A stretch of 34,397 nt of DNA from Comamonadaceae bacterium (lineage in GTDB: Bacteria; Pseudomonadota; Gammaproteobacteria; Burkholderiales; Burkholderiaceae_C). The notes beneath the pieces are model-generated. The model was not told the origin of the DNA and searched no databases. It saw nothing but the letters and a program-made list of their open reading frames with translations. The stretch covers positions 1 through 34,397 of the forward strand of contig JAIXRH010000128.1 of the NCBI GenBank assembly GCA_027485285.1, given 5' to 3'. This document shows, in pieces, positions 26,331-29,711 of this stretch. Made by a program: the position numbers and the translations under genes. Every line of letters starts with the position of its first letter. Within the stretch, counting starts at the first letter, position 1.

Positions 26331-27278
26331 ATGCACATCCTCTTCGTTGCTGACGCGCTGTCGTCCTTCAAAATTTACAAGGACACCACGTTTGCCATGA
26401 TGCGTGAGGCGCAGCGTCGAGGCCACCATGTGCTGGCCTGCGAACCGCAAGACATCGCGTGGCAAAGCGGGCAGCCAGTGTCGGCACGCGTGCAGCACGT
26501 GCGCCTCACGGGCGATGCTGAGAATTGGTTTGACGTGCAAAGTGTGGACGCGCGTTACGCGCTCAAAAGTGCCGATGCCATCGTGATGCGCAAAGACCCG
26601 CCTTTTGACAGCGAGTATTTCTACGCCACCCACTTGCTAGAACAAGCCGAGCGAGAGGGTGCCAAGGTGTTCAACAAGCCGGCGGCTTTGCGTGACCACC
26701 CCGAGAAGTTGGCCATTCTGGAATTCGCCCAATTCATCAGCCCCACACTGGTGACGCGCAGCGCTGATGCCATTCGCGCCTTTCACGCGCAACACCGTGA
26801 CATCATCTTGAAGCCGCTCGACGGCATGGGCGGTATGGGCATCTTTCGCGTGAAAGATGATGGCTTGAACCTAGGCGCGATCACGGAAACCCTGAACCGC
26901 GACGGCGCACAAACCGTGATGGTGCAAAAGTTCATCCCCGCCATCGACCAAGGCGACAAGCGGGTGCTTGTCATTGGCGGCAAGGTGGTGCCCTACTGTT
27001 TGGCCCGCATCCCGCAAGGCGGCGAAGTGCGTGGCAATTTAGCGGCGGGCGGCAAAGGTGTGGCGCGCGCCATCTCTGCGCGCGACCAAGAAATCGCCGA
27101 AGCCCTGGGCCCCATCCTGGCCAAACGTGGCTTGTTGTTGGTGGGCTTGGACGTGATTGGTGACTGTTTGACAGAGGTGAACGTCACCAGCCCCACGTGT
27201 TTTCAAGAGATTTTTGACCAAACTGGTTTTGATGTGGCCGCGATGTTCATCGACGCGCTTGAGGTTGCTGCCACTTAA
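26331..27278 (+). CDS. gshB: Glutathione synthetase
   Basis: Second step of glutathione synthesis: ligation of glycine to gamma-glutamylcysteine. The 315-residue ATP-grasp enzyme starts MHILFVADALSSFKIYKDTT. It contains FNKPAALRDHPEKL, ILKPLDGMGGMGIF (ATP-binding Gly-rich loop) and ends with the metal-binding region ITEVNVTSPT-like sequence LTEVNVTSPTCFQEI. Length equals E. coli GshB (316). It follows kup by 5 bases. Its stop codon overlaps the stop of the convergent amidotransferase gene within a TTAA palindrome, so no terminator separates the two. Confidence 0.96.
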   Translation: MHILFVADALSSFKIYKDTTFAMMREAQRRGHHVLACEPQDIAWQSGQPVSARVQHVRLTGDAENWFDVQSVDARYALKSADAIVMRKDPPFDSEYFYATHLLEQAEREGAKVFNKPAALRDHPEKLAILEFAQFISPTLVTRSADAIRAFHAQHRDIILKPLDGMGGMGIFRVKDDGLNLGAITETLNRDGAQTVMVQKFIPAIDQGDKRVLVIGGKVVPYCLARIPQGGEVRGNLAAGGKGVARAISARDQEIAEALGPILAKRGLLLVGLDVIGDCLTEVNVTSPTCFQEIFDQTGFDVAAMFIDALEVAAT

Positions 27279-28051
27279 GCGCGTAGCTCCCCGTTGACAA
27301 ACAGCTTCAATTCCCCGGGGGCAAATGGGGTCCACACTTCATTGGTGGTGAGAGGGGCAGTCACCACAACCGCCACGCGGTCATTGGGCGTGGCGTAGTC
27401 CGCAAAATTGATGCTCAAGGCTTGGTCGCTCAATGTCGCGGTGGCAAAAGGGTGTTTGCGTTCGATGTACCAAAGGCTGGTCGATGCATGTGACCACAGC
27501 GCCTGCCCATTCGACAGTAAAAAATTAAACGTGCCGAATTTGGCGATCTGAGGGACCAACTCTTGCAAGGTGAGTGTGAGTTCCTCGATCGAAGGCATGT
27601 CGGCGTGTGATTTGGCCATTTCTTGGAGCAACCAGCAAAACGCTTGCTCGCTGTCTGTGTCGCCCACAGGCTTGAAGCTGCCGTGCAAACGCGGCGCATA
27701 GTTCTCCAGGTTGCCGTTGTGCGCAAACACCCAGTAGCGGCCCCACAGCTCGCGCACAAACGGGTGGCAGTTTTCCAGCGACACCACGCCTTGCGTGGCT
27801 TTGCGAATGTGCGAAATGACGTTGCGGCTTTTGATGGGGTACTTGCGAATCAACTCGGCCACGGGCGATGTGCTGGCAGGCAAGTGGTCGATGAAGTGGC
27901 GCAACCCACGGTCTTCTTCTGAGCCTTCAAAAAACGCAATGCCCCAGCCGTCAGCGTGGTGATCGGTCACGCCCGCGCGTTGCGCGAAGCCACTGAAGCT
28001 GAAGGTGGCATCTGTTGGGTTTTTGCAGTTGAGTCCGAGCAATTGGCACAT
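27275..28051 (-). CDS. Class II glutamine amidotransferase (YafJ-like)
   Basis: Ntn-type glutaminase domain protein. The start is fixed by chemistry: MCQLLGLNCKNP places Cys2 at the mature N-terminus, where it is the nucleophile after Met removal, so ATG 28049-28051 is used although the frame is open further upstream. HADGWGIAFFEG (about residue 30), VISHIRKATQG, FAHNGNLENY and GDTDSEQAFCW are the usual glutamine-site motifs. The 258 residues are all glutaminase; no synthase domain is attached, so the ammonia acceptor is unknown. Relatives include E. coli YafJ and fungal DUG3 (glutathione degradation). The contact with gshB is suggestive but only positional: the stops overlap. Confidence 0.88.
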   Translation of the reverse strand: MCQLLGLNCKNPTDATFSFSGFAQRAGVTDHHADGWGIAFFEGSEEDRGLRHFIDHLPASTSPVAELIRKYPIKSRNVISHIRKATQGVVSLENCHPFVRELWGRYWVFAHNGNLENYAPRLHGSFKPVGDTDSEQAFCWLLQEMAKSHADMPSIEELTLTLQELVPQIAKFGTFNFLLSNGQALWSHASTSLWYIERKHPFATATLSDQALSINFADYATPNDRVAVVVTAPLTTNEVWTPFAPGELKLFVNGELRA

Positions 28052-28098
28052 GGTCCAAAGTGTAGCGAAGCGGACAAGGCACAATTACAAAAAATCTT

Positions 28099-29310
28099 AT
28101 GTACGAATTTCCACCCACGCCTGAAGCTGCGCAGCTGCGCTTAGACCACGTCAGCCCCAAAGACTATGCGCATTCACGCAATGCTTTGGACGGTGCTGTC
28201 ACGCATTTATCGCCCTATCTCACACATGGTTTTTTGAGCGTGCCCGACGTGGCCAGTGTCATGTACCACCAGTACCGCGTGGGCGTTCAGCACAAGCTGA
28301 TTTACGAGCTGGGATGGCGCGAATACTTCCAGCACATGCACCACCATTTGGGCGCGGGCATTGCCCAGTCTTTGCACGAGGGCCTGCTGCCAGATTCGGC
28401 CTACAGCAACGAGTTGCCCGAAGATGTGCGCCATGCCTGCACCCGCGTGCCAGTGATCGACAACGCCATCCGCATGCTCTACACCACCGGCTATTTGCAC
28501 AACCATGCGCGCCTGTGGCTGGCCAGCTACATCGTGCATTTGCGCAAAGTGCACTGGCGTGTGGCGGCAGATTGGATGTACAGCCATTTGTTGGATGGTG
28601 ATGTGGCCAGCAATTACCTCGGCTGGCAGTGGGTGGCCGCCACGGGGAGCAACAAGCCTTATTTATTCAATGCCGAGTCGGTGGAGAAATTTGCGCCAGA
28701 AATTTGGCACAGCCGTGGCACATCGGTGGATGTGAGCTACGAACTGATGGAGATCTTGGCCAACAGCCAGGCGACTGTTGCGCAAGTGCGCAAAAACGAA
28801 TTGGCGTGGGACGAGCCAGCGGTGTTTGCAGCACCCCCTGCTGAATTGGGTTTTGTTCAACCTGTTGCGGCTGATGTGACGGGCAAGCACGTATGGTTGG
28901 TGCATCCGTGGGTGCTGGCCAATATGCCAAATGACTTGCCTGCGGATGTGGTGTGCGTGGCGGTGGCATTTGCTGAGCACACACACGCGCATCCTTGGAA
29001 TACCTTGCGCTGGCACTTTGTGAGCGAGCGCATGGCAGCCCTCACACCACACCGTTGGTTTGGTTCCGCTGAAGATGTGTTGGCCGCCTTGGCTGCAGCG
29101 CAGAGCGTGCAAACCGTGGCCCACTTGTGTTTGCCAGACCTGTCGGCGAGTCATGTGCAAGTCAGGGCTGCACCCCGCTTGTTCCGTCACATCGACAAGC
29201 CCATGGACTCATTCAGCAAATGGTGGGTGCAGGTGAACAAGAATGTGCGCCATTTGCAGCAGCTGGTGTACCCGCTGCCAGCCCGAACGCCCGGGCCTCA
29301 TCGCGGGTAG
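28099..29310 (+). CDS. Photolyase/cryptochrome-like FAD-domain protein with swapped domain order
   Basis: A 403-residue protein whose first ~215 residues match the C-terminal FAD-binding helical domain of photolyases. SRNALDGAVTHLSPYLTHG recalls the TS-x-LSP-x-L segment, followed by YELGWREYFQH, TRVPVIDNAIRMLYTTGYLHNHAR, ASYIVHLRKVHWR and DVASNYLGWQWVA. Two of the electron-transfer tryptophans appear kept (VHWR and LGWQW); the outermost one has no evident counterpart. After a linker, residues ~258-345 (KHVWLVHPWVLANMPNDLPA onward, with PWNTLRWHFVSERMAAL) look like a degenerate alpha/beta antenna domain, which in ordinary photolyases comes first. Proteins of this type occur in Burkholderiales as 'FAD-binding domain' proteins. 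Repair activity is unproven. No ribosome binding site is clear; divergent from the amidotransferase, 47 bases away. Confidence 0.8.
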   Translation: MYEFPPTPEAAQLRLDHVSPKDYAHSRNALDGAVTHLSPYLTHGFLSVPDVASVMYHQYRVGVQHKLIYELGWREYFQHMHHHLGAGIAQSLHEGLLPDSAYSNELPEDVRHACTRVPVIDNAIRMLYTTGYLHNHARLWLASYIVHLRKVHWRVAADWMYSHLLDGDVASNYLGWQWVAATGSNKPYLFNAESVEKFAPEIWHSRGTSVDVSYELMEILANSQATVAQVRKNELAWDEPAVFAAPPAELGFVQPVAADVTGKHVWLVHPWVLANMPNDLPADVVCVAVAFAEHTHAHPWNTLRWHFVSERMAALTPHRWFGSAEDVLAALAAAQSVQTVAHLCLPDLSASHVQVRAAPRLFRHIDKPMDSFSKWWVQVNKNVRHLQQLVYPLPARTPGPHRG

Positions 29311-29315
29311 AGGCG

Positions 29316-29711
29316 TTACTCGCCGGGGGCAGGCAGCACCTTGGTGATGAAGTATTCCGTCTCACCAAAGCAAGTGGGCAGGCCTTTGTGTTGTTCATAT
29401 TCGATCACCACCTTTTGCCCGATGCGTGCGTTGATCTGATCTGCTATTGCATCGTCGCGCACAGTGAATGCAAACTTCTCTGGCACCGCAGGCAAGGTTG
29501 CCAAGGCGCGAATTTGTTCGCCTTCCCACGTTTTGCAGACCCAACCCTTGTAGGACAGCTTTTGTACAAAGCCCACGCTTTCACCCTTGGAGTAAGTGAA
29601 GTGGTAAGTGAACAGCAAATACAAGCCGACGCCAATGACCACGGTCAGCACCAAGCCGATGACGGTGCGCAGTGCAAAGCGAATCAGCGTGCTGATGAAA
29701 TGGGTGGTCAT
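29316..29711 (-). CDS. Small membrane-anchored protein of unknown function
   Basis: A 131-residue product with one N-terminal membrane helix (TVIGLVLTVVIGVGLYLLFTY, about residues 16-36) and an outer or periplasmic domain. That domain has KLSYKGWVCKTWEGE, FTVRDDAIADQIN and VVIEYEQHKGLPTCFGETEYF, with two cysteines that could pair. I recall close relatives in many betaproteobacteria, sometimes misnamed 6-phosphogluconate dehydrogenase; there is no such domain here. It lies downstream of malate synthase on the same strand, but a strong hairpin stands between them. The stop is 5 bases from that of the convergent photolyase-like gene. Confidence 0.78.
   Translation of the reverse strand: MTTHFISTLIRFALRTVIGLVLTVVIGVGLYLLFTYHFTYSKGESVGFVQKLSYKGWVCKTWEGEQIRALATLPAVPEKFAFTVRDDAIADQINARIGQKVVIEYEQHKGLPTCFGETEYFITKVLPAPGE

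Follow-up and report, generated by a model that had tools for sequence, protein, structure and literature searches.

In ordinary photolyases an alpha/beta domain, which may hold an antenna pigment, comes first and the FAD domain follows. A 34,397-nucleotide stretch of DNA from a freshwater Comamonadaceae bacterium, referred to below as the window, contains an open reading frame (ORF) whose product appeared on initial annotation to have the two domains in the opposite order. The question raised by this locus is whether the inverted order is natural and what such a protein would do in the cell.

The gene, its start, and its neighbors

The reversed-order photolyase ORF (P0001, 28099..29310, + strand), recognized by translation, Pfam, and homologs, codes for 403 amino acids without an internal stop, and the window that carries it is contig 130 of a 2.35-Mb assembly, 98% complete. 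Homologs at E ≤1.6e-77 spanning at least residues 4–314 are present in 25 of the 61 genomes searched with the protein, its own genome counted (22 of 37 within the genus and 3 of 24 in other families), which rules out a chance ORF. One in-match stop is reported in three of these 25 rows (G015, G028, and G033), whose open frame reaches profile position 390 or 396, so that the stop lies at the very end of the match. At the order level 31 of 300 sampled genomes, again with the own one counted, give a family-profile match of E ≤1e-100; stops fall within the profile match in five of the 31, the open frame of locus L098 starts only from profile position 52, and some of the order-level copies of the gene may be broken. 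The nearest relatives in the collection of named genomes are those of Limnohabitans sp. and of other Comamonadaceae or Burkholderiales MAGs, and on the relatives' contigs (22 loci) the best segment is 42–88% identical. The occurrence of the gene inside the genus is patchy, as for an accessory gene. No relative was found in the viral contigs searched with the family profile, and a tblastn search of a phage collection matched 10 of 50,697 records, none of which reached 80% query coverage. In all seven comparisons made (dS being saturated in one of them, with L051) dN is lower than dS, for residues 1–215 and for residues 258–382 alike; both the FAD part and the tail are under purifying selection.

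The start of the gene is shared as well. An ATG stands at the start of the window ORF, or at most three residues from it, in 21 of 21 loci (at the same residue in 15), a count that omits the partial locus L052 and in which earlier starts are also possible for several loci. On the 5' side, a divergent spacer of 47 bases (28052..28098, defined by the ORF map and the start of the neighbor) separates it from a gene on the opposite strand coding for a class II glutamine amidotransferase (Pfam PF13230). The ORF of that gene (27275–28084, − strand) is listed with a TTG start at 28084, its likely true start being the Met at 28051, from which the product reads MCQLLG..., with the Cys beside the start that class II amidotransferases should have. 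Since this likely start lies at 28051 on the other strand, no N-terminal domain has been cut off upstream; moreover, an HMM of the canonical alpha/beta domain has no match at E ≤10 in the window frames longer than 30 codons. The possibility left by the initial annotation, that a domain lost by a sequence error before the ORF could be recovered, is rejected on these grounds, and the natural domain-order swap that it proposed is borne out by the homologs, their common start region, and the lack of an upstream domain. That the protein is a truncated or mis-assembled canonical photolyase, a reading suggested by the fact that the absent half stands in front in standard photolyases, is scarcely credible when start region and length are shared with relatives from many genomes and the upstream DNA encodes another protein on the opposite strand.

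No match to a sigma-70-type promoter was found in the segment 27950–29400. On the 3' side lies a convergent ORF of 131 aa (29316–29711, − strand) with a hydrophobic N-terminal stretch, which matches no Pfam family at E ≤1 and no NCBIfam model at E ≤0.01.

The FAD domain and the active site

The protein is a member of the photolyase/cryptochrome superfamily. Its catalytic FAD domain is N-terminal, at residues ca. 20–205 (28156..28713, + strand) according to Pfam and alignment, with the match to Pfam PF03441 (FAD_binding_7) at residues 69–191 (28303–28671, + strand, E 1.3e-23). The four motifs from which the FAD domain was first placed in front, LSPYLTHG (residues 37–44), LGWREYF (71–77), TGYLHNHAR (130–138), and DVASNYLGWQW (168–178), lie in this half, and the placement stands. 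No other Pfam family is found in the 403-aa protein at E ≤1, PF00875 and PF04244 both being absent. Four NCBIfam photolyase/cryptochrome models fall inside residues 6–201, each below its cut-off, phmmer against the PDB gives 26 distinct sequences at E ≤0.001, all aligned to the FAD half, and profile comparison too links this half to solved photolyases. In a whole-chain AlphaFold2 model the FAD half is poor (mean pLDDT 64.8), with residues 133–236 below 50.

The active site was compared in an alignment of 67 rows, 53 reversed and 14 canonical, to whose pocket positions we assign the numbering and residue roles of E. coli PhrB. The positions of PhrB E274, W277, N341, W384, D372, D374, N378, W359, and W382 hold the same residue in 64–67 of the 67 rows, and the window protein keeps all nine. 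At the place of PhrB M345 it has Leu (L139), as do 4 of the 21 Burkholderiales rows, the remaining 17 having Met. At the place of R342 every one of the 53 reversed rows has His (H136 in the window protein) and all 14 canonical rows have Arg, so that the HNR of the canonical rows reads HNH throughout the reversed set, a motif that is possibly a signature of the group.

N135 and L139 of the window protein stand where eukaryotic (6-4) enzymes have two His residues, and as a sequence pattern the pair is of the CPD type. This Asn with Leu or Met argues against a (6-4) or dual-specificity photolyase, as does the lack of a match to PF04244; some relatives adjoin PF04244 (prokaryotic (6-4)-type) genes and the nearest ones bear Fe-S-type cysteines, which speaks for such an enzyme, and on balance we regard this specificity as improbable.

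Class I photolyases carry a Trp triad, a relay that serves photoreduction of FAD and not the repair step. Of its members, the middle Trp, W153 (28555..28557, + strand), and the proximal one, W176 (28624..28626, + strand), equivalent to PhrB W359 and W382, are invariant across the 67 rows. Where W306, the outer member, would be expected, Y102 (28402..28404, + strand) appears to stand, Tyr being found in 18 of the 21 Burkholderiales rows at this position, where the alignment is uncertain. The missing outer Trp was thus read correctly at the outset. The doubt about light-driven repair that had been drawn from it does not hold up, as the NewPHL of Dinoroseobacter shibae, described as having only a Trp dyad (PMC8948257), is cited as a photolyase of CPDs in single-stranded DNA (PMC9426592).

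Relatives of the Fe-S type and two-gene forms

The window protein has its closest relatives in a group labeled here the Fe-S type. This group counts nine loci, from six order-level genomes (E 1e-69 to 1e-75), one phylum genome (L059/L129), and two Deinococcus plasmids; four Deinococcus plasmids matched, the two not counted matching the fused form over 99–100%, and G695, split between two contigs, is left out of the count. In all nine loci the FAD part precedes the alpha/beta part, the two being separate genes in seven and fused in two (L090 and L128). When HMMs of the alpha/beta part are built with one locus left out at a time, this part is recovered in each of the nine at E ≤1e-20. Eight of the nine have four cysteines with the spacing 85-3-(4 to 7), which is 85-3-6 in four, and L127 retains only the first cysteine. 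The corresponding columns of the window protein hold V119, H204, G207, and a gap, and Cys is shown in them in none of the 21 Burkholderiales rows. The relatives examined from the window protein's own group are single chains except for L130 (G473 contig 117), in which the FAD and alpha/beta parts are read in different frames, owing either to a frameshift or to a genuine two-gene arrangement.

The C-terminal alpha/beta domain

An AlphaFold2 model and intermediate profiles delimit a C-terminal alpha/beta domain at residues ca. 258–382 (28870..29244, + strand). Modeled from 16 sequences, the C-terminal 164 residues are predicted to adopt an alpha/beta fold (mean pLDDT 79.5, pTM 0.76). Foldseek gives no match at E ≤0.001 for this domain alone or for the whole-chain model, with no photolyase among the best 50 of 615 and the best 50 of 279 hits (E ≤10), respectively. 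Single-sequence Pfam scans found PF00875 in none of 16 tails of the window group. In the Fe-S type it appears below the curated cut-off in the fused tail of Deinococcus psychrotolerans (E 0.001) and in the separate second gene of Deinococcus sp. QL22 (E 2.3e-4), and of seven further tails one gives E 0.02 and six nothing. With these scans empty or below cut-off, the homology of the tail rests on profiles.

Tail profiles were built from 35 Burkholderiales, 9 Fe-S type, and 22 NewPHL-like sequences, and a canonical profile from 11 N-terminal domains, with L073, L075, L078, and L079, which are without the start motif used, omitted and L002 added. The Burkholderiales tails match the Fe-S type alpha/beta parts (Prob 97.8, E 6.5e-13), and these in turn match the canonical N-terminal domains (Prob 97.6, E 3.5e-12) and the NewPHL-like tails (Prob 88.8, E 2.5e-6). 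In the 40 column permutations run for each pair, Prob did not exceed 3.0. The NewPHL-like tails reach the canonical domains at Prob 24.5 (E 8e-4). Compared directly, the Burkholderiales tails score Prob 0.3 against the canonical domains and 2.7 against the NewPHL-like tails (hhalign; permuted maximum 2.8); the pooled profile of Burkholderiales and Fe-S type tails scores Prob 82.1 and 54.3, respectively, where the 20 permutations of each control gave maxima of 0.6 and, against the NewPHL-like profile, 0.5. A search with an HMM built on the tails of the Fe-S type also recovers the tails of Burkholderiales (best E 4e-10, with 0.005 for the window protein), that of Persicobacter (2.2e-5), and the canonical photolyase of the window genome itself (E 2.5e-6), and no NewPHL-like row at E ≤0.01. 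The DSFSKWW motif of the window protein (residues 370–376; 29206..29226, + strand), located by profile alignments, aligns with ...RFTAYW... in the tails of the Fe-S type, and this segment in turn with ...VFTPFW... in canonical photolyases. By this chain of profiles, and through intermediate relatives only, the tail is linked to the canonical N-terminal antenna-type alpha/beta domain. The placement of an antenna-like domain last, made on initial annotation, is thereby upheld by the predicted fold and the intermediate profiles, with the direct profile comparison negative and Foldseek giving no significant match.

Phylogenetic position

In a first FAD-domain tree of 67 rows, the 22 NewPHL-like rows all group together in one clade (100/99), with the window protein outside it; the Burkholderiales rows (21), the Fe-S type rows (9), and Persicobacter, 31 in all, join at 96/93, and within them Burkholderiales and Persicobacter join at 98/98, Persicobacter being a long branch whose place is unsure. 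A wider tree keeps 14 of the 22 NewPHL-like and 14 of the 21 Burkholderiales rows and adds loci from searches with DASH (10 above the TIGR02765 cut-off) and plant-cryptochrome models, the latter giving no locus above the model cut-off. It splits 38 reversed rows, the window protein among them, from 44 canonical-order rows at 100/100. The NewPHL-like rows are again a clade (14 of 14, 100/100), and the other reversed groups have no supported order. Both trees omit the PF04244-type and class II photolyases and hence do not fix the root. Going by these trees, the window protein lies outside the NewPHL-like clade and nearest to the cysteine-bearing Fe-S type relatives.

The clade called NewPHL-like here probably corresponds to the published NewPHL class, to judge by architecture and taxa (e.g., Ruegeria TM1040). 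That the window protein is an ordinary NewPHL ortholog, and the published class simply gains a further member, would agree with the shared domain order, the Trp dyad, and the absence of Fe-S cysteines; it is nevertheless very improbable, as the clade excludes the window protein in both trees and the NewPHL-like tail profile matches its tail no better than the permuted maximum. Filing the protein as a NewPHL was rejected on its place outside the clade.

Genomic context

Among 71 distinct Burkholderiales loci, 17 have a second photolyase-family gene in the flank, as do six of the nine loci of the Fe-S type and the single Persicobacter locus; the flanks are mostly 0.3–5 kb long, so these counts are lower bounds. 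The window gene is among the 54 Burkholderiales loci without such a neighbor in the flank. The three long PF04244-like neighbor frames tested all have a Pfam PF04244 match, and the C-terminal fragment used as a probe for such neighbors has none itself and matches the PF04244 protein of the window genome (E 1.7e-91). The search for a canonical phr gene proposed on initial annotation had a positive outcome: in the window genome a canonical-order photolyase adjoins a PF04244 gene on contig 62 and a class I-like photolyase is encoded on contig 128, the reversed gene lying apart from both.

In L123, L125, and L126 the gene row consists of a homolog of the window genome's PF04244 protein, the two-gene reversed photolyase, and a canonical-order photolyase, a compact photorepair cluster in Burkholderiales. 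In L053–L057 (Oxalobacteraceae and one Burkholderiales MAG) a canonical-order photolyase frame nearly abuts the end of the reversed frame on the same strand. NewPHL-like genes adjoin a gene of the AarF/ABC1/UbiB kinase family in L088 and L092 (Ruegeria TM1040 and Peteryoungia plasmids).

That the reversed protein is a cryptochrome-like blue-light sensor or a redox protein with DNA repair lost, as suggested on initial annotation, would fit a genome that also has two canonical-order photolyases and a PF04244 gene, and the shortened relay and the replacement of the canonical Met and Arg by L139 and H136 point the same way. To this reading we give a small probability, since most of the tested pocket residues are kept, the protein is under purifying selection, the five window neighbors scanned with Pfam show no match to a signaling family, and the photolyase-family neighbors in 17 of 71 Burkholderiales loci form a repair context.

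Proposed function

The window protein is likely to be an inverted-topology DNA photolyase that depends on flavin and is driven by light. This is argued for by the FAD domain, found by Pfam, NCBIfam, phmmer, and profile comparison, by the kept pocket residues and the CPD-type pattern, and by the photolyase-family neighbors in related loci together with purifying selection on both parts. It is also argued for by the place of the protein among reversed photolyases, of which those with a cited activity (PMC13274461, PMC9426592) act on CPDs. Against it are L139 at the M345 place and H136 at the R342 place, and, on the side of modeling, the poor model of the FAD half and the lack of a significant Foldseek match. 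In the literature consulted, moreover, no protein of this branch has a reported activity.

In the proposed mechanism, the N-terminal half would bind FAD and a flipped-out cyclobutane pyrimidine dimer, the presumed substrate; excited FADH− would give an electron, the dimer would split, and the electron would return. The Trp dyad of W176 and W153 would re-reduce the oxidized flavin. The shortened C-terminal alpha/beta domain would pack on the FAD domain and act, most likely, as a lid rather than as an antenna, the latter presumably being absent. By analogy with NewPHL, the protein may prefer single-stranded DNA, a preference that would complement what its genome has besides, a class I-like photolyase and a photolyase gene paired with a PF04244 gene; the analogy draws on a sister clade that excludes the window protein.

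Comparison with known photolyases

The NewPHL class was reportedly defined by Emmerich et al. in 2020, and the short photolyase-like proteins (SPL), one of them from Rhodococcus, are said to have been defined by Xu et al. in 2021. NewPHL are described with an inverted topology and as repairing CPDs in single-stranded DNA (PMC13274461, PMC9426592), and PMC13274461 lists the NewPHL sequences A8LJA9, M7YZC8, Q2N8F4, and B6IPR5. In picocyanobacteria of marine and brackish waters Phr4/Phr5 are two genes and Phr6 a fused one, in reversed order, Phr7 is likewise in print as a reversed photolyase, and Phr4 of Synechococcus RS9916 has the cysteines C169, C254, C257, and C263 (PMC9426592). SPL are described, after Xu et al. 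(2021), as being without the alpha/beta domain and placed at the root of photolyases and cryptochromes (PMC9649867), and PMC9498864 reports the same proposal. Inverted-topology photolyases are thus already known, and the expectation on initial annotation of an undescribed activity gives way to the printed accounts of reversed NewPHL and of Phr4 to Phr7 (PMC13274461, PMC9426592). The window protein is a fused, cysteine-free Burkholderiales branch outside the NewPHL-like clade. Our search of the titles and abstract openings of open-licence literature found no reversed photolyase of Limnohabitans or Burkholderiales, which is weak evidence of absence.

The window protein shares with Phr4/5/6 the FAD domain in front and the alpha/beta domain second, and the cysteine spacing of Phr4 of RS9916 (85-3-6) is identical in four of the nine loci of the Fe-S type; the cysteine-bearing SPL members probably belong with Phr4/5/6. 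The window group differs from them, Phr4 and Phr6 being compared by printed description, in lacking all four cysteines and in its more diverged tail. With NewPHL and Phr7 it has in common the inverted topology, the absence of Fe-S cysteines, and the Trp dyad (with the alignment of the outer position uncertain), but it lies in a separate clade, NewPHL-like rows standing in for the published sequences, and its tail has DSFSKWW where NewPHL-like tails, in the rows printed, end mostly in a WPxxxxGFF-like motif. Canonical photolyases (class I and DASH) share the FAD domain, most of the pocket residues, and, by intermediate profiles, the alpha/beta family, whereas in class I, class III, and DASH enzymes the alpha/beta domain is N-terminal and not, as here, C-terminal.

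Two things are new here: the extension of reversed and two-gene forms to Burkholderiales and Deinococcus, with a cysteine-free fused branch, and the chain of profiles that joins the tails of the window group, the Fe-S type tails, the canonical domain, and the NewPHL-like tails. The alpha/beta part behind the FAD part in all nine Fe-S type loci suggests that the "short" photolyases of this type are rearranged and not primitively short, and that the "missing" domain of SPL is present, following the FAD domain within one chain or encoded by the gene that comes next. The chances are about even that SPL, NewPHL, Phr4 to Phr7, and the Burkholderiales group go back to one rearrangement, which put the antenna-type domain behind the FAD domain via a two-gene stage that survives (FAD gene, then alpha/beta gene), with Burkholderiales as a branch that was fused again and whose loss of the Fe-S cluster was independent of that in NewPHL. 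If so, short and reversed photolyases are not primitively domain-less, and the argument that places them at the root of the family is weakened. Two genes with cysteines, a fused gene with cysteines, and a fused gene without them form a natural series in which to test what the Fe-S cluster and the second domain do.
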